Shown here one piece after another: positions 19,799 to 24,798 of a stretch of DNA of 40,485 bases. The DNA is taken from assembly GCA_014193395.1 (NCBI GenBank), contig BJHT01000025.1, positions 1 through 40,485 on the forward strand, written 5' to 3'. The DNA comes from Verrucomicrobiota bacterium (GTDB lineage: Bacteria; Verrucomicrobiota; Verrucomicrobiia; Limisphaerales; BJHT01). The first letter of the stretch is position 1. Each line of letters starts with the position of its first letter. The notes beneath the pieces were generated by a model that was given only the letters and a program-made list of their open reading frames with translations, made no database searches and was not told the DNA's origin. The translations under genes and the position numbers were made by a program.

Positions 19799-19872
19799 GC
19801 GGTTGTGATTTAACAGCAGAATAGCTTCCCGCCACGGAGCACGTCCGGGTGCAACTCCCGGCAACCGCACCA
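19799..19872 (+). tRNA. tRNA-Gly(GCC)
   Basis: Acceptor GCGGTTG pairs with CAACCGC, discriminator A, CCA encoded. D-loop TAACAGCAG has A18 G19; T-loop TGCAACT has G55. Anticodon stem GCTTC/GGAGC; loop CCGCCAC gives GCC, but position 33 is C instead of the near-universal U. Confidence 0.85.
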
Positions 19873-19920
19873 ATCCCTTCGCGACTCCGAGCTGCGAGTC
19901 GCTTCTTTCCATCTTACTAC

Positions 19921-19994
19921 AGGCCGCGCGCCAGCTTGCGCCACAGAGTCTCCAAAACTCCGTCGGCTTGGGGCAGCACCAAGGCGGCCTGCCA
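19921..19994 (+). tRNA. tRNA-Trp(CCA)
   Basis: Acceptor AGGCCGC/GCGGCCT, discriminator G (a Trp identity base), CCA encoded. Anticodon loop CTCCAAA with U33. T-stem CTTGG/CCAAG closes an aberrant T-loop GGCAGCA (G54 G55 C56). The D-region contains AG in place of GG. The first anticodon-stem pair is A-C. Confidence 0.8.
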
Positions 19995-20073
19995 TTCTTT
20001 AATTTGAAATCTCAAATCTCAGATTTCAAATCTCAGAGTCGCCCTCGGCGTCTTGGGGGCGCATCCCATCTCC

Positions 20074-20275
20074 TTGCAGCTGATTCCCCATCTCATTAGC
20101 ACCCGGCTTCAGCCGGGTGTCTAGGCACGGGGATGATCACAACCGCTTTAGCGGCTTTTCGGCCTTGCCGCAGAGGTTGGAGCCTCCGCCAAAGCCGCTA
20201 AAACGGCAGCCCGATTCTCTTCCCCGGCAACACCCGGCTGAACCCGGGTGCTAATGAGAATTGCAAGAAACTGAA
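20074..20275. repeat. ~200-bp palindromic element, copy 1
   Basis: Outer arms contain CTCATTAGCACCCGGCTTC and ACCCGGGTGCTAATGAGAA, with inner hairpins CCGCTTTAGCGG and GCCGCTAAAACGGC. A second copy in the same orientation, including the flanking words GATTCCCCAT and GCAAGAAACTGA, is at 25054-25256. MITE-like, no coding capacity. It occupies the spacer between Trp and Met tRNA genes. A degenerate heptamer run (AAATCTC) lies just before it at 20004-20036. Confidence 0.85.
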
Positions 20276-20304
20276 CGGCACCCCACCGACTCCACCCCTT
20301 TCAC

Positions 20305-20382
20305 TGCGGGAAACTCGACCAATGCACAGAGAGAAGCCTCATAAACTTCTACAGGTGGGTGTGACTCCCACTCCCGCTACCA
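20305..20382 (+). tRNA. tRNA with CAT anticodon (Met, or Ile2)
   Basis: Acceptor TGCGGGA/TCCCGCT has a mismatched 1-72 pair (T-T), which resembles initiator tRNAs; discriminator A, CCA encoded. Anticodon loop CTCATAA. D-loop contains CCAATGC (A18 A19), and T-loop TGTGACT has G55 and U56, so the 19-56 pair is A-U. It lacks the three G-C pairs of initiator anticodon stems, so elongator Met or lysidine-type Ile cannot be excluded. Confidence 0.75.
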
Positions 20383-20389
20383 GTTTTCC

Positions 20390-20479
20390 GGGAAGCGATC
20401 CGGCCGTCCGACTGTAAATCGGATGTCGCAAAACAAGGCCGGAAGCGACGAACTGGAGCATTCCCAGCGCTTCCCACCA
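20390..20479 (+). tRNA. tRNA-Tyr(GTA) with reduced D-arm
   Basis: Acceptor GGGAAGC/GCTTCCC, discriminator A, CCA encoded. Anticodon stem TCCGA/TCGGA with loop CTGTAAA. Long class II variable arm closed by GTCGC/GCGAC. Only 10 nt separate acceptor and anticodon stems, so no normal D-arm can form. T-loop AGCATTC carries G55 and C56. Confidence 0.75.
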
Positions 20480-20481
20480 GA

Positions 20482-20557
20482 GGACTTGTAGCTCAAGTAG
20501 CAGAGCGCCCCGTTGTCTGCGGGAGGGTTGAGGGTGCAACTCCCTTCAAGTCCGCCA
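20482..20557 (+). tRNA. tRNA-Asp(GTC)
   Basis: Acceptor GGACTTG/CAAGTCC, discriminator G (Asp identity), CCA encoded. D-stem GCTC/GAGC with loop AAGTAGCA (A18 G19). Anticodon loop TTGTCTG with an unusual T37; first anticodon-stem pair mismatched. T-loop TGCAACT (G55). Two bases after tRNA-Tyr. Confidence 0.85.
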
Positions 20558-20644
20558 CTTTCCCATCTTACCGCGAGGCCGATTCCAGGGAATCCATGCC
20601 CCGCGACTCCACCGCCCCGGTCTTCTCCCAAGGCCGGGGCGCAA

Positions 20645-20720
20645 CAGCGCGTAGCGTAGCAGCCAACGCACCCGGCTTGGGACCGGGGGACCGCAGGTGC
20701 AAATCCTGCCGCGCTGACCA
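20645..20720 (+). tRNA. tRNA-Pro(TGG)
   Basis: Acceptor CAGCGCG/CGCGCTG has the C1-G72 pair typical of bacterial Pro tRNA, with discriminator A and CCA encoded. Anticodon loop CTTGGGA on a perfect stem CCCGG/CCGGG. D-loop AGCAGCCA (A18 G19), T-loop TGCAAAT (G55). The spacer before it holds a GCCCCGG/CCGGGGC hairpin. Confidence 0.88.
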
Positions 20721-20729
20721 TTTTCCCAT

Positions 20730-20805
20730 GCTGCCGTGGCCGAACACATCAGGCATCCACCTTCTAAGTGGACCAATGCGGGTGGAACTCCTGCCGGCAG
20801 CACCA
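20730..20805 (+). tRNA. tRNA-Arg(TCT)
   Basis: Acceptor GCTGCCG/CGGCAGC, discriminator A, CCA encoded. Anticodon loop CTTCTAA on TCCAC/GTGGA. D-loop GAACACATCA reads A18 C19, and T-loop TGGAACT reads G55 G56. The 19-56 pair is therefore C-G, reversed from the usual G-C. Confidence 0.87.
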
Positions 20806-20806
20806 T

Positions 20807-20880
20807 TGCCAGATGGTGTCAAAGTAGCACGGCGGCCTGTTAAGCCGCTTGTCTTGGTGCGAGTCCAAGTCTGGCAGCCA
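20807..20880 (+). tRNA. tRNA-Asn(GTT)
   Basis: Acceptor TGCCAGA/TCTGGCA, discriminator G, CCA encoded. D-loop TCAAAGTAG (A18 G19), anticodon loop CTGTTAA on GCGGC/GCCGC, T-stem CTTGG/CCAAG with loop TGCGAGT (G55). One base after tRNA-Arg. Confidence 0.88.
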
Positions 20881-20885
20881 TTCTC

Positions 20886-20974
20886 CAGGGTGAAGTATCC
20901 GAGGCGACAGTGTCGCTGAAAAAGCAAGGGCGATCCGGCATTTCAGCTCCGAAGCGCGAGTGGCATTCACCCTG
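20886..20974. repeat. Spacer hairpin between Asn and Ser tRNA genes
   Basis: CAGGGTGAA is mirrored by TTCACCCTG across 71 nt, with an inner CGACA/TGTCG hairpin. The size (about 90 nt) resembles a class II tRNA, but no anticodon stem, D-arm or CCA end can be fitted, so I treat it as a palindromic spacer element or a decayed tRNA. Confidence 0.45.
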
Positions 20975-20984
20975 ATCATCCAAC

Positions 20985-21073
20985 GGAAGGCAGGCAGATA
21001 TAAGCTGGCTGCACCTGTCCCGAAAACAGGATCGGCATCGCCGAGGTCGGAGCATTACCGACGCCTTCCGCCA
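20985..21073 (+). tRNA. tRNA-Ser(CGA)
   Basis: Acceptor GGAAGGC/GCCTTCC, discriminator G (Ser identity), CCA encoded, class II variable arm CGGC/GCCG. Anticodon loop CCCGAAA on CCTGT/ACAGG, with C33 instead of U33. D-stem GCAG/CTGC with a loop containing AAG. T-loop AGCATTA (G55 C56). Confidence 0.85.
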
Positions 21074-21264
21074 TTTTGCCCCCGACCCAACACTTATCCC
21101 TCAACCAAAGGCATCGATATGAAACCTCCCCTCCGATTCCAAAGTCAGTTGCCGCTGCGCCGCAGCTACAAACCGCGCCGCCCGCTTCGCATCCCGCGGG
21201 TGACTCGCGCAACACTCGTCTTTCGCCCAGCCAATCGCTTCGGCGAAAAACCCCAGATCACCAT

Positions 21265-21338
21265 CGTCCCGTAGCTCAATAGCAGAGCACTCGCCCGATA
21301 AGCGAGAGACCGCGGAGCGTTACCGCGCGGGACGACCA
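21265..21338 (+). tRNA. tRNA-Ile(GAT)
   Basis: Acceptor CGTCCCG/CGGGACG, discriminator A, CCA encoded. D-stem GCTC/GAGC with loop AATAGCA (A18 G19). Anticodon loop CCGATAA with C33. T-stem CGCGG/CCGCG with loop AGCGTTA (G55 C56). The ~190-bp spacer before it has a GCTGCG/CGCAGC hairpin and no firm gene. Confidence 0.86.
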
Positions 21339-21378
21339 TTTACGGGCGCCGGACTCCGGTCCGTCGCCTTCCGACAAT

Positions 21379-21453
21379 CCCCGGGTAGCTGAGACAGATT
21401 AGCGCCTCCCTGAAGAGGAGGAGACGCAGGTGCGATACCTGCCTCGGGGACCA
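21379..21453 (+). tRNA. tRNA-Phe(GAA)
   Basis: Acceptor CCCCGGG/CTCGGGG (C1-G72, one G-T pair), discriminator A, CCA encoded. Anticodon loop CTGAAGA on CCTCC/GGAGG. D-loop GAGACAGATT has A18 G19; T-loop TGCGATA has G55. Confidence 0.82.
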
Positions 21454-21459
21454 CTTCTC

Positions 21460-21537
21460 GTCCGTGAATGCAAAGCAGCTCGCGCAACCTGCCCTTCAAG
21501 CAGGTCCTAGCCGGTGCGAGTCCGGCCACGGACGCCA
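21460..21537 (+). tRNA. tRNA-Glu(TTC)
   Basis: Acceptor GTCCGTG/CACGGAC, discriminator G (Glu identity), CCA encoded. Anticodon loop CCTTCAA on CCTGC/GCAGG with C33. Long D-loop (12 nt) containing CAGC (A18 G19). T-loop TGCGAGT (G55). Confidence 0.85.
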
Positions 21538-21539
21538 AC

Positions 21540-21619
21540 GCTCTCAAGGTGTAACGAGAACCCTGCACGCCGCCCTGCGAAGGCGGAGGTTCGTGGTGCA
21601 AATCCACGTGGGAGCACCA
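21540..21619 (+). tRNA. tRNA-Arg(GCG)
   Basis: Acceptor GCTCTCA/TGGGAGC (one T-G pair), discriminator A, CCA encoded. Anticodon loop CTGCGAA on CCGCC/GGCGG gives GCG, reading CGC. Bacteria normally read CGC with inosine (ACG), so this anticodon is unusual. D-stem GTG/CAC with a 14-nt loop containing GAG; T-loop TGCAAAT (G55). Confidence 0.83.
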
Positions 21620-21621
21620 TT

Positions 21622-21730
21622 TCAAATGGCGAATTGAGAATGGCGAATGACGAACGCCCACCCCGCTCGCCGACCTAACCGGTGACGCCCCTCTCATTCG
21701 CAATTCGCAATTCTTGATTCCCCATTTCCA
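21622..21730. repeat. Inverted degenerate heptamer repeat between Arg and Thr tRNA genes
   Basis: The left side reads as successive 7-mers GAATTGA, GAATGGC, GAATGAC, GAACGCC. The right side (21693-21728) reads CTCATTC, GCAATTC, GCAATTC, TTGATTC, their inverted counterparts. Together they can form a long imperfect hairpin. Confidence 0.7.
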
Positions 21731-21732
21731 GC

Positions 21733-21808
21733 GCCCCTGTGCCTCAGCAGCCACAGGGCGGGTTTTGTAAACCCGTATTCGTCGGTGCGAGTCCGACCAG
21801 GGGCTCCA
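21733..21808 (+). tRNA. tRNA-Thr(TGT)
   Basis: Acceptor GCCCCTG/CAGGGGC, discriminator T, CCA encoded. D-stem CCT/AGG with loop CAGCAGCCAC (A18 G19). Anticodon loop TTTGTAA on CGGGT/ACCCG. T-stem GTCGG/CCGAC with loop TGCGAGT (G55). Confidence 0.87.
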
Positions 21809-21814
21809 GCTTCC

Positions 21815-21893
21815 GTCAGGATTGTGGTGTAACAGCAGCATCTCTCCCTGTGAAGGAGACGGTCCGGGTGCGAATCCCGGCTTCCTGACCCCA
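21815..21893 (+). tRNA. tRNA-His(GTG)
   Basis: Acceptor GTCAGGA/TCCTGAC, discriminator C as expected for His, CCA encoded. Anticodon loop CTGTGAA on TCTCC/GGAGA. D-loop ends TAACAGCAG (A18 G19); T-loop TGCGAAT (G55). The base at -1 is C, not the encoded G-1 that bacterial HisRS normally needs opposite C73. Confidence 0.86.
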
Positions 21894-22003
21894 AGTAAGA
21901 ATGCGCCACGATGGTTTGTCTGTGCATGCCGCACGAATTACCAACCCCGAGGCGAACCCAGCAGCTCCAGCCGTGACTGCGTTCGCCTGCACTTTCATAT
22001 TCT

Positions 22004-22078
22004 GTCCCGTTGGCCGAGCAGCCGAGGCAATGGTCTGCAAAACCATCCAGGCGGGTGCAACTCCCGCACGGGACTCCA
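22004..22078 (+). tRNA. tRNA-Cys(GCA)
   Basis: Acceptor GTCCCGT/ACGGGAC, discriminator T (Cys identity), CCA encoded. D-stem GCC/GGC with loop GAGCAGCCGA (A18 G19). Anticodon loop CTGCAAA on ATGGT/ACCAT. T-stem GCGGG/CCCGC with loop TGCAACT (G55). The spacer before it contains an AGGCGAAC/GTTCGCCT hairpin. Confidence 0.88.
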
Positions 22079-22131
22079 TTTTTCCCAAGTGAATCCGGCG
22101 CGCCGGGAGAGACCACGCACGGTCGAAGTAA

Positions 22132-22293
22132 AGGAGCCGGCAATAAGTTGCGGTGGCAAGATCGCGCAGGGTTTTTGGCGAGGGACAAGGCGCGAGTGAG
22201 GCGCATATCCGCAGGGATCTGTAACGAGCGAGCAACGCCGTCCCTGGGCAAAAGACCAAGCGAGATTGCCACCGCTATTTGTTGCCGGCTCCT
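22132..22293. repeat. ~160-bp palindromic element between Cys and Arg tRNA genes
   Basis: GGAGCCGGCAATAAG... at the left and its inverted, slightly diverged copy ...TTGTTGCCGGCTCC at the right form arms of about 27 bp (about 24 matches). Pairing continues inward (AGGGAC with GTCCCT). MITE-like, no coding capacity. Confidence 0.75.
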
Positions 22294-22336
22294 GATGGCC
22301 GGGTGCCGGATTCAGTGCGCTTGGGAGACGCCCTTC

Positions 22337-22412
22337 GCATCCGTGGTGAAACTACAATCATACTCCGCTTCGAACGGAGAGTTTGCAGGTGAGAGTCCTG
22401 CCGGATGCACCA
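22337..22412 (+). tRNA. tRNA-Arg(TCG)
   Basis: Acceptor GCATCCG/CGGATGC, discriminator A, CCA encoded. Anticodon loop CTTCGAA on CTCCG/CGGAG. D-loop AAACTACAAT reads A18 C19, and T-loop TGAGAGT reads G55 A56, so the 19-56 pair is not maintained here (C with A). This is the one exception in the set. Confidence 0.85.
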
Positions 22413-22482
22413 ATCCCTTCAAGGGAGCGCAGGCTGGCGGCGGTCGAACACGGCCGACAGTCAGTCTGCGCTACATTTTTCC

Positions 22483-22566
22483 GGGCATGTGGTTAAACCC
22501 GAATAGCAGAGAGTCCAGACTCAGAATCTGGTAGCCTTGGGGGTGCAATTCCCTCCATGCCCACCA
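22483..22566 (+). tRNA. tRNA-Leu(CAG) with short variable arm
   Basis: Acceptor GGGCATG/CATGCCC, discriminator A (Leu identity), CCA encoded. Anticodon loop CTCAGAA on CCAGA/TCTGG. D-region has AATAGCAGAGA (A18 G19) but is about 25 nt, longer than normal. The variable region is only about 7 nt, against 12 or more in ordinary bacterial Leu tRNA. T-loop TGCAATT (G55). Confidence 0.8.
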
Positions 22567-22635
22567 TTTTGCGGCAACTGACTTTGGTGGGTGGATAAGT
22601 CATCCATTGAGAAGAGTTGCCACGCCTATCTATTT

Positions 22636-22723
22636 GGAATGTCAACCGGACAAGCGAGCCGGGCCTCGGTGCTAACGAGCGCGTGCCTGCGGGCAAGTGG
22701 TGCAAGTCCACGACATTCCGCCA
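22636..22723 (+). tRNA. tRNA-Ser(GCT)
   Basis: Acceptor GGAATGT/ACATTCC, discriminator G, CCA encoded. D-stem CCGG/CCGG with loop ACAAGCGAG (A18 G19). Anticodon loop GTGCTAA. Class II variable arm TGCC/GGCA. T-stem GTGG/CCAC with loop TGCAAGT (G55). The spacer before it holds a GGCAACT/AGTTGCC hairpin. Confidence 0.85.
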
Positions 22724-22726
22724 TCT

Positions 22727-22919
22727 AACCAGGATATTTCATGCTCGTTTTGCACCGCAGGCTTCCAAGCCTGCTGTATCGCGGGTTTCTAAACCCGCGG
22801 GGCGTCCGGCGAGGCCGACACCCTGCCGACTTAGAAGTCGGCGATACAGCAGGTTTGGAAACCTGCGCTAACAGGGCGGGAGAGCTATGGCTGCGAAGGG
22901 ACCATGAAATATCCGGGTT
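22727..22919. repeat. Nested inverted repeat: GGATATTTCATG arms around a GCAGGTTT-type cluster
   Basis: Outer arms GGATATTTCATG (22732-22743) and CATGAAATATCC (22903-22914) are perfect, extended by AACC and GGTT. Inside are GCAGGCTTCCAAGCCTGC, GCGGGTTTCTAAACCCGC, GCCGACTTAGAAGTCGGC and GCAGGTTTGGAAACCTGC, the family of 16680-16865. It may be one element inserted in another. Confidence 0.8.
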
Positions 22920-22950
22920 AACTGATCGGCGGGTTTGCGACGACGTCGTT

Positions 22951-23610
22951 TTAGTGTGTTCGCACTCCCGCGACCTGTTTCAAGGCCCGGAGGAGAAACT
23001 CCCGGCGGGGACCCGAAAGTTGCGAGCCGAAGCGCAGGGACTTGGCTTCGAGTTCGATCTCGATCTGCGGAACACTCCGGTTGTTCTGCTGCCACTTTGT
23101 CAGGGACCGCCGCACCGCTTTAACTTCGCTCCAGCGGAAGCGCCGGGTCCATCCTATCGGCCCGATCCCGGTGAAAACTGCTCCCCGATCCCCTTCGCGC
23201 CGGACCGTGATTTTGCCGCAGACACACATCAATGCGAATGGCACCAGAAACAAACTGCCGAGTAGAAACGGCAAACCAAACAGACAGAGCTTCCAATCCA
23301 GTGCTCCCTTGTAGATTTGTGTCCCGTAGATTCCACCCAATGAACCGCCCGACCACAGCACGGTAAAAGGAACGAGGAAAAACGCGATGGCCGAGCGGGT
23401 CGTGGCACCTACCTCGAAGCCTCCACCCATCTGTCGCAACCACGTCCCGGTCGGCGGACGCGACATATCCATCGGCGGCTCCGCCTGCTCCTTCGCCAAC
23501 TCAGCGAAACTAAAGGTCTGCGAGCACGACCGGCACAATGCCACGTCGGTTGAGACATTCACATCCTCCAACGGGATGGCGCGCCGGCATTTCGGGCAGG
23601 AGATATTCAT
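22951..23610 (-). CDS. Zinc-ribbon membrane protein of unknown function
   Basis: Protein of 219 residues. An N-terminal zinc ribbon has CPKC (about residues 4-7) and CRSC (about 26-29). Two hydrophobic segments follow (IAFFLVPFTVLWSGGSLGGIYG; LFGLPFLLGSLFLVPFALMCVCG), then a basic C-terminal beta-rich domain (KITVRREGDRGAVFTGIGPIG; FRWSEVKAVR). Proteins with this layout occur in PVC bacteria, but I know no function for them. It lies between the Ser and Lys tRNA genes on the opposite strand. ATG at 23610 is chosen because the ribbon starts there; a TTG at 23640 adds ten residues. Confidence 0.7.
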   Translation of the reverse strand: MNISCPKCRRAIPLEDVNVSTDVALCRSCSQTFSFAELAKEQAEPPMDMSRPPTGTWLRQMGGGFEVGATTRSAIAFFLVPFTVLWSGGSLGGIYGTQIYKGALDWKLCLFGLPFLLGSLFLVPFALMCVCGKITVRREGDRGAVFTGIGPIGWTRRFRWSEVKAVRRSLTKWQQNNRSVPQIEIELEAKSLRFGSQLSGPRREFLLRALKQVAGVRTH

Positions 23611-23690
23611 AGGTTCAGTATTATCCTTCGGGGTAATCAAGGCGAGTTATTCCTCACCGACACAGACCCAACCGCCGCCACCCATTTTCC

Positions 23691-23764
23691 GGCCTGCAAG
23701 CATTAAAGTGATGCATCGGACTTTTAATCCGAGGAACAGGGAGCGTTACCCTGGCGGGCCACCA
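23691..23764 (+). tRNA. tRNA-Lys(TTT)
   Basis: Acceptor GGCCTGC/GCGGGCC (one T-G pair), discriminator A, CCA encoded. D-stem GCAT/ATGC with loop TAAAGTG (A18 G19). Anticodon loop CTTTTAA on TCGGA/TCCGA. T-stem CAGGG/CCCTG with loop AGCGTTA (G55 C56). Last tRNA of the array, separated from the others by the zinc-ribbon gene on the other strand. Confidence 0.87.
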
Positions 23765-24213: not shown

Positions 24214-24798
24214 ATGTCCGACATACTTAACAAGAACATCGTTCTCGTGCTCAACCGCAACTGGCAGGCGATCAACATCCGCACGCCGGCCGATGCGTTC
24301 TGCCAGATGGCCACCCAGGTCGCCACCGCGCTGGACATCACGGGCGAGGAACAAATCCGTCCGGTTTCCTGGGCTGAATGGATCACCCTGCCCATCCGCG
24401 ATGGAGACCACTCCGTCCGCACGGTGCGCGGGGAAATCCGCGTGCCTGCGGTAATTATCGCGGTGAACTACGCCAAGGTGCCCCAGCAGCGTCCGCGGCT
24501 CTGTGCCCGCTCGATCCGCGAGCGCGACGGCAACCGCTGCCAATACACCGGCCGCGTGCTTCATCCCGACGAGGGCAGTCTCGACCACGTTGTGCCCCGC
24601 TCGCGTGGTGGTGCGGACTCGTGGGAGAATCTCGTCTGGTCCGCCAAGGACGTGAACCAGCGCAAGGCCGACCGTCTTCCGCACGAAGCCGGTCTGCGGC
24701 TGCTCAGCATTCCGCGCGCGCCGAAGGAACTGCCGGCCACGGCGTTCATCCGTAACTCGCACGGGATTCCGGCGTGGAAGCTGTTTCTGAAGACATGA
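24214..24798 (+). CDS. HNH endonuclease
   Basis: Protein of 194 residues. The C-terminal half contains an HNH core: RDGNRCQYTG (first zinc-ribbon-like Cys), SLDHVVPRSRGG (the catalytic D-H pair, about residues 125-136), and WENLVWSAKDVNQRKADRLP (N and final H/K positions). The N-terminal half (VLVLNRNWQAINI ... DAFCQMATQVATALD) is typical of the HNH family spread in cyanobacteria and PVC bacteria. It should be a metal-dependent DNA nuclease; whether it homes, restricts or repairs is unknown. It lies 450 bp after the last tRNA of the array on the same strand. ATG at 24214 begins the conserved domain. Confidence 0.88.
   Translation: MSDILNKNIVLVLNRNWQAINIRTPADAFCQMATQVATALDITGEEQIRPVSWAEWITLPIRDGDHSVRTVRGEIRVPAVIIAVNYAKVPQQRPRLCARSIRERDGNRCQYTGRVLHPDEGSLDHVVPRSRGGADSWENLVWSAKDVNQRKADRLPHEAGLRLLSIPRAPKELPATAFIRNSHGIPAWKLFLKT

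Follow-up and report, generated by a model that had tools for sequence, protein, structure and literature searches.

A 40,485-nucleotide (nt) stretch of DNA from a Verrucomicrobiota bacterium (assembly GCA_014193395.1, contig BJHT01000025.1), called the window here, carries an array of transfer RNA (tRNA) genes with a changed elbow, the site where D-loop residue 18 meets T-loop residue 55. The array lies at 19799-23764 on the plus strand and has 19 genes with 19 anticodons for 16 amino acids, and every gene ends in CCA. All 19 T-loops have G55, A18-G19 is readable in 15 of the 19 genes, and none has the G18 and U55 of a canonical elongator tRNA. The elbow change is very probably compensated. 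We give an even chance to a further reading, that this supernumerary array, with its G55 and mostly A18, rebuilds the elbow on another RNA motif, works in translation, and goes unseen by enzymes that read U55 or G18.

The gene set was assembled by direct reading, a covariance model, and a custom scanner, none of which found a tRNA for Ala, Val, Gln, or Trp in the window array. The original prediction, made from the sequence alone, had counted 20 genes and 17 specificities, one too many in each case. A candidate 20th gene at about 20888-20975 has, by eye, a 7-bp acceptor-like pairing without a T arm or CCA; it was rejected and is perhaps a broken tRNA. Because of the altered elbow, a standard tRNA finder misses such genes (ARAGORN detected 10 of the 19), and the Rfam tRNA model detected 14 in the window. 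Our scanner, which requires an encoded CCA and misses many long-armed tRNAs, found 16, with tRNA-His in the wrong register. It called no tRNA on the opposite strand and none in one shuffled window. Together with the Rfam matches, these controls rule out chance or false tRNAs as the source of the array.

The T-loop reads T54-G55-N56-R57-A58 in 15 of the 19 tRNAs and A54-G55-C56-R57-T58 in the other four (Tyr, Ser-CGA, Ile, and Lys), so the predicted absence of U55 and presence of G55 held for every gene. The accompanying claim, A18 with G19 kept, stands for the 15 genes in which it is readable. Four of these have D-loops of exactly 7 nt, which leave no choice of register for positions 18 and 19. 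The claim fails for Arg-TCT and Arg-TCG (C19), for Met (A19), and for tRNA-Tyr, which has no D stem and is the one gene of the 19 in which a four-arm cloverleaf could not be read. Two of these exceptions are A18-C19 with G56 (Arg-TCT) and A18-A19 with T56 (Met). The genes are as follows.

19799..19872, plus strand: tRNA-Gly(GCC), D-loop AACAGCA, T-loop TGCAACT, C33, A73
20305..20382, plus strand: tRNA-Met(CAT), T-loop TGTGACT (T56), 1-72 is T-T
20390..20479, plus strand: tRNA-Tyr(GTA), no D stem, T-loop AGCATTC
20482..20557, plus strand: tRNA-Asp(GTC), A18/G55
20645..20720, plus strand: tRNA-Pro(TGG), A18/G55
20730..20805, plus strand: tRNA-Arg(TCT), D-loop AACACATC, T-loop TGGAACT (C19 opposite G56)
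20807..20880, plus strand: tRNA-Asn(GTT), 7-nt D-loop CAAAGTA, T-loop TGCGAGT
20985..21073, plus strand: tRNA-Ser(CGA), long variable arm, T-loop AGCATTA (A54/T58)
21265..21338, plus strand: tRNA-Ile(GAT), D-loop AATAGCA, T-loop AGCGTTA (A54/T58)
21379..21453, plus strand: tRNA-Phe(GAA), T-loop TGCGATA
21460..21537, plus strand: tRNA-Glu(TTC), T-loop TGCGAGT, C33
21540..21619, plus strand: tRNA-Arg(GCG), T-loop TGCAAAT
21733..21808, plus strand: tRNA-Thr(TGT), T-loop TGCGAGT, T73
21815..21893, plus strand: tRNA-His(GTG), T-loop TGCGAAT, acceptor end 2 bases longer than usual
22004..22078, plus strand: tRNA-Cys(GCA), T-loop TGCAACT, T73
22337..22412, plus strand: tRNA-Arg(TCG), T-loop TGAGAGT (A56)
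22483..22566, plus strand: tRNA-Leu(CAG), T-loop TGCAATT
22636..22723, plus strand: tRNA-Ser(GCT), T-loop TGCAAGT, G73, read by eye with T arm and CCA matched by pattern
23691..23764, plus strand: tRNA-Lys(TTT), 7-nt D-loop TAAAGTG, T-loop AGCGTTA

The change is specific to the array within its genome. This genome (7.9 Mb in 730 contigs) has 57 matches to the Rfam tRNA model (RF00005), 12 of them inside the array. We read the remaining 45 from 30 loci and 15 further stretches, and all 45 have ordinary TTCRA T-loops (U54-U55-C56). Therefore, G55 is not a lineage trait, an outcome that the original prediction had named as refuting it. Every one of the 20 amino acids is represented among the 45 matches, which include a tRNA-Tyr read as ordinary by ARAGORN, and the array is thus supernumerary to a full housekeeping set. 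One non-T55 scanner call in the 30 loci (L008, minus strand, at the cut-off score) was taken for a false tRNA. The genome also encodes TruB, to which the array tRNAs offer no U55, in agreement with the earlier claim that TruB could not act on them.

A18/G55 tRNAs recur in other verrucomicrobial arrays and in viral contigs, a check that the original prediction had proposed. We scanned genomes of the same class and phylum for the pattern GGTGCRANTCC-N11-CCA, which needs G55. It has 11 matches in the window's genome, 10 of them in the array, at least five in 6 of 93 other genomes of the class, and at most two in any of 194 genomes from the phylum's other classes. For wider sampling, loci were taken from among the matches listed in A18/G55 or G55 pattern scans of GTDB genomes and viral contigs, the latter as labelled by IMG/VR. 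Identical tRNAs were counted once, leaving 2058 distinct sequences, and two loci (L067 and L079) are one contig. Two others (L106 and L311) probably are, so one "bacterial" array may be phage. Where seeds were removed, tRNAs matching the D-loop seed were taken out; those fetched by the T-loop pattern were kept because that pattern leaves position 18 free.

Among the matches listed, 70 bacterial loci, the window included, had at least five tRNAs by our scanner. At least 60% of the tRNAs were G55 in 59 of them, all assigned to Verrucomicrobiota from the record title or from relatedness to the window. With seeds removed, at least 75% were G55 in 49 of 58 sampled bacterial arrays with at least six tRNAs, and of 72 sampled viral arrays 37 had less than 10% G55 and 6 more than 60%; the use of A18/G55 seeds to fetch the loci over-samples set-wide G55, and the proportions should not be read as population frequencies. 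In all, A18/G55 was found in hundreds of tRNA genes of related bacteria and viral DNA. Every tRNA found was G55 in the arrays of Chthoniobacter flavus Ellin428 (19/19) and Geminisphaera colitermitum TAV2 (24/24). We take both to be cultured strains, which would open an A18/G55 set to experiment. Plasmids searched with a cyanobacterial array, and phages searched with that of the window, matched only over about one tRNA's length.

Positions 18 and 55 covary in these loci. We counted 18-55 combinations in tRNAs with 7-nt D-loops after removing D-loop seeds. The viral tRNAs (n = 327) gave G-T 242, A-G 73, G-C 6, T-T 3, and one each of G-G, A-T, and A-C, and 22 viral loci contain both G18-T55 and A18-G55 tRNAs. 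The bacterial tRNAs (n = 202) gave A-G 149, G-T 27, G-G 17, G-C 3, C-G 3, T-G 2, and C-T 1. Fisher tests on the main 2-by-2 tables gave 5e-70 (viral) and 1e-21 (bacterial), in tables that do not count independent events because the sequences are related. Wider seed removal, of all loops resembling the seed, left viral G-T 242 and A-G 43 with one crossed combination each way, and bacterial G-T 27, A-G 82, and G-G 17.

Positions 19-56 and 54-58 covary as well. At 19-56, some tRNAs of both elbow types have C-G, A-T, or T-A besides G-C, and nonpairing combinations also occur. At 54-58, five pair types (T-A, A-T, G-G, C-A, and C-C), picked after the table was viewed, account for 790 of 815 bacterial tRNAs (shuffled mean, 472) and 1175 of 1210 viral tRNAs (shuffled mean, 890). 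A 54-58 combination other than T-A is found in 145 of 285 viral G55 tRNAs versus 56 of 901 viral T55 tRNAs. The claim that both elbow partners changed together and not by random decay is borne out by the 18-55 covariation in bacterial and viral loci and by identity elements that are largely kept (see below). The covariation at 54-58 and 19-56 goes beyond the original prediction, as do the UGNRA account of the elbow, the D-stem-less tRNA-Tyr, and the HNH partner described below.

The new letters resemble a known RNA fold. In canonical tRNAs residue 18 intercalates between T-loop bases 4 and 5, and G18 pairs with pseudouridine 55, which an elbow review terms universally conserved (PMC4810234). 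A second paper describes a UGNRA lonepair triloop in which an A from outside contacts the triloop G and completes a GNRA-like fold (PMC2258182). T54-G55-N-R57-A58 with A18 agrees with that description at each letter. The 15 T54 loops of the window have the UGNRA sequence, and the remaining four are A54/T58; for the outside A, the evidence is the covariation of A18 with G55 and of G18 with T55. Because U54-G55-N-R-A58 plus an outside A is the published motif, A18·G55 is probably its outside-A pair. By analogy with that motif, T54-G55-N56-R57-A58 would form the lonepair triloop with a U54·A58 trans Watson-Crick/Hoogsteen pair. A18 would insert behind R57 and pair with G55 as the closing A of the GNRA-like fold, and 19-56 would retain the outer tertiary pair. 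The UGNRA triloop, or T-loop motif, is known from riboswitches and rRNA. The array version differs in that it would occupy the tRNA elbow, with D-loop position 18 as the outside A, and in that 54-58 of the sampled tRNAs can also be A-U, G-G, or C-A.

The tRNA-Tyr of the array departs further. Only 10 nt separate its acceptor and anticodon stems, and there is no D stem. Instead, CCGGCC of the D region pairs with GGCCGG of the variable region. The AAGC that comes next may take the place of A18-G19. A search free of any D-to-variable pairing requirement found 12 such tRNA-Tyr genes (3 viral), all paired at five or six of the six helix positions, and a search that required the pairing found 8 more. 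The total of 20 comprises the window's gene, 16 other bacterial genes, and 3 viral genes (L245, L254, and L275), which the aligner misplaced and which were omitted from both pair counts. A relaxed search for tRNAs lacking a D stem yielded largely noise and had the pairing built in as a requirement, so the count was redone on the 9 alignable of the 12 genes from the unrestricted search. In these nine bacterial genes 92.6% of cells pair versus 71.1% when shuffled (reached in 0 of 500 shuffles), and the covariation score is 0.690 versus 0.207 when shuffled and at most 0.125 when slid. Five of the six helix pairs vary on both sides (reached in 3 of 500 shuffles), and the number of pair types is unremarkable (61 of 500). 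All 17 bacterial genes together give 94.1% pairing and a score of 0.664. The authors of a 2024 paper state that they know of no tRNA without a loop or stem-loop that is used in bacterial translation (PMC11551756). Natural D-arm-less tRNAs, the mitochondrial type III and nematode tRNAs (PMC7609411), share the absent D stem. Unlike them, the array tRNA-Tyr is bacterial, and its D stem is replaced by a covarying D-to-variable helix. The same plan was seen in three tRNA-Arg(TCT) genes, two with G55 and AG after the helix (L154 and L158) and one with T55 and GG (L086).

What is kept outside the elbow bears on function. At synthetase identity positions, bacterial G55 tRNAs keep G3·T70 in Ala (29/30), C1-G72 in Pro (45/45), G73 in Asp (35/35), Asn (36/37), Gln (23/24), and Trp (11/11), and T73 in Cys (34/35). 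All 20 amino acids are represented among the sampled G55 tRNAs, and most of the anticodons are standard. CCA ends, acceptor pairing, and most identity elements are preserved as predicted, whereas the 1-72 pair of Met and the acceptor of His look strained. An orthogonal or nuclease-resistant set, as the original prediction had suggested, is conjecture; as to orthogonality, most identity elements look host-like. The array tRNA-Gly mostly has A73, and the genome encodes a dimeric-type glycyl-tRNA synthetase (TIGR00389, above cut-off). Separately, 1-72 is T-G or T-T in 12 of 18 bacterial G55 tRNA-Met genes (T-T in the window's), and the bacterial G55 set includes three stop anticodons (CTA twice and TTA once).

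A chromosome outside the phylum is informative about decoding. We read 44 tRNAs in the patescibacterial Candidatus Daviesbacteria CP066688.1 (820 kb, titled chromosome): 39 have TTCRA and 3 have C55, and its sole tRNA-His and sole tRNA-Arg(CCT) are both A18/G55. No match to TruB was found in CP066688.1. The sole tRNA-His suggests, by analogy, that an A18/G55 elbow can support essential decoding. Patescibacterial tRNA-His(GTG) genes with A18/G55 were seen at eight loci (L081, L084, L087, L088, L091, L092, L104, and L123).

Similar arrays occur in many verrucomicrobial genomes and some viral contigs, and the verrucomicrobial ones often have a partner gene. In the window this gene starts 453 nt past the array on the same strand.

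24217..24798, plus strand: HNH endonuclease gene (Pfam HNH_4, E 1.2e-9)

Clustering of all neighboring open reading frames was obscured by antisense frames, and a direct HNH search was used instead. In 22 of the 59 mostly-G55 loci a relative shares the array's strand, being downstream in 21 and inside in 1. Among the 37 loci in which none was found, 36 have at most 4.1 kb of 3' sequence and one (L068) has 8.2 kb. We extended the search to the whole genomes of 25 of these 37 loci. A relative was present in 24, and two of these had just a distant one (33-37% identity). For 12 of the genomes array places were listed, and 11 of the 12 have an HNH gene (54-79% identity) on a contig with G55 tRNAs; it shares their strand and lies on their 3' side, with 58 nt to 15 kb between it and the nearest listed tRNA. 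The gene also follows mostly-T55 arrays (L071 and L187); its association is therefore with the array rather than with the elbow. A paper on mycobacterial arrays names HNH-type endonucleases as their most widespread coding genes (PMC5966550). We predict that the nuclease moves or maintains the array. Two genomes, those of L102 and L132 (G296 and G304), have more than one G55-array contig each, and at least two of these contigs carry an HNH gene of their own.

Why would whole sets have switched? Because they did, a factor acting through the elbow on every canonical tRNA is the probable driver; this is the weakest step of the proposal. Candidates would be a need for pseudouridine 55 or a T-loop-directed tRNA-cutting nuclease (tRNase), and the array would then serve as a back-up set that survives a factor hitting canonical tRNAs. 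A tRNase that cuts the T-loop next to pseudouridine has been described (PMC9086364), and another paper proposes that phage tRNAs resist host anticodon nucleases (PMC10264068). An Anabaena array is reported to be silent, to be induced by stress, and to help under translation stress (PMC10272220). The T-loop tRNase, the phage evasion tRNAs, and the silent array together lead us to favor a back-up set, somewhat above neutral inheritance. In its full form, the proposal is that Verrucomicrobiota and phages run a second, elbow-code tRNA set: A18·G55 on a UGNRA T-loop, 54-58 pairs that can replace one another, and even a tRNA-Tyr whose D helix has shifted to the variable region. The set would have been selected wholesale to keep translation going in the cell or phage once canonical tRNAs have been cut or are without pseudouridine 55. 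We put it forward tentatively, at a little below an even chance.

Several observations weigh against a selected, translating second set. No nuclease and no missing modification enzyme was identified, and the genome encodes TruB. The over-sampling of set-wide G55 noted above counts on the same side. Identity positions are lost in part: C73 of His is kept in 21 of 37 and A73 of Phe in 35 of 49 bacterial G55 tRNAs, and 37 of 42 tRNA-Gly have A73 in place of the T73 of host tRNA-Gly. Window tRNAs look strained in places (Met, with T1-T72 and C31-A39, and the acceptor of His). C33 replaces U33 in window Gly, Ile, Glu, and Ser-CGA, and U33 is lost in 14% of bacterial G55 tRNAs versus 2% of viral T55 tRNAs. 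Arg-TCG has A18-C19 with A56 and no standard 19-56 pair. The 17 G18-G55 tRNAs among the 202 bacterial ones also break the covariation; 14 are tRNA-Leu, 12 put C opposite C56, and the tRNA-Leu cases are probably a register error from the scanner's fixed 4-bp D stem. Finally, A18/G55 tRNAs stand alone where no array was seen, so the switch requires no set-wide driver.

This last point leads to the strongest rival, a compensated but neutral change. Here, A18·G55 is an equally good elbow of an ancestral array that spread by descent and gene conversion without advantage, and we hold this to be a credible though doubtful account. Apparently stand-alone A18/G55 genes for tRNA-His, Thr, Arg, or Pro in unrelated bacteria fit it, as do the mixed arrays in viral contigs and the finding that all 59 sampled mostly-G55 arrays are verrucomicrobial. 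However, G55 reaches at least 75% in 49 of the 58 sampled bacterial arrays and spans all 20 amino acids, and for about 20 genes to undergo neutral double changes, a common driver is needed. Most array tRNAs also retain identity elements proper to the amino acid they specify, which across all 20 makes copying from one gene unlikely.

A decaying array, once mobile and now silent and degenerating, is improbable. Spacers of up to 967 nt, the broken tRNA-like copy near 20888-20975, several mismatches, and the silence of the Anabaena array in standard culture (PMC10272220) would suit it. Against it stand the kept CCA, acceptor pairing, and most identity elements, and covariation at 18-55, 19-56, and 54-58 and in the tRNA-Tyr helix rules out pure decay. 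Least likely of all is a role outside ribosomal translation, such as aminoacyl donors or nuclease decoys: known non-translational tRNAs do have altered D and T loops, but the G55 tRNAs sampled span all 20 amino acids and have mostly standard anticodons, and the only tRNA-His of a patescibacterial chromosome has this elbow.

Among known systems, the array is closest to the L-arrays, or tRNA array units, such as the trn operon of Anabaena sp. PCC 7120 and those of mycobacteria, which are likewise dense many-isotype clusters beside a housekeeping set. Its density and range of isotypes are those of an L-array (19 genes within 3,966 bp, 16 amino acids). The threshold for an L-array is at least 20 genes; 19 were found in the window, and relatives can be larger (29 tRNAs found in L065). 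Set-wide G55 may set the window array apart from the Anabaena and mycobacterial arrays, and the term "T-loop" does not occur in the main texts of PMC10272220 and PMC5966550. Like phage evasion tRNAs (PMC10264068), the array would supply extra tRNAs altered where a nuclease would read. The phage changes are in the anticodon loop, whereas those of the array are in the elbow and take a set-wide form in bacterial genomes. We recognized no description of A18-G55 tRNAs among the papers listed by searches of the open-licence PubMed Central (PMC) literature. The G18·Ψ55 pair (Ψ, pseudouridine) is treated as a conserved lock of tRNA structure, and a covarying alternative in hundreds of genes indicates that the elbow has more than one solution. 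A18/G55 tRNAs offer a natural way to probe the elbow requirements of RNase P, the CCA enzyme, TruB, EF-Tu, and the ribosome, and the set-wide change points to a pressure on whole tRNA sets.

Some further observations were made along the way. In the window, long imperfect inverted repeats lie between tRNA genes at 22079-22300 and 22717-22934 (by eye), and a plant microRNA model also matches the second, far below its family cut-off. Nostoc and relatives (L077, L078, L122, L136, L142, L145, L150, and L151) carry an A18/G55 tRNA-like element that starts TACATACT. It is unlike ordinary tRNAs, and a G18/T55 counterpart lies about 1.5 kb off in six of the eight loci. In Xanthomonas phage X1 (L475, 6005-6078), a tRNA-Lys that is unannotated in the record has A54/T58 but G18/T55.

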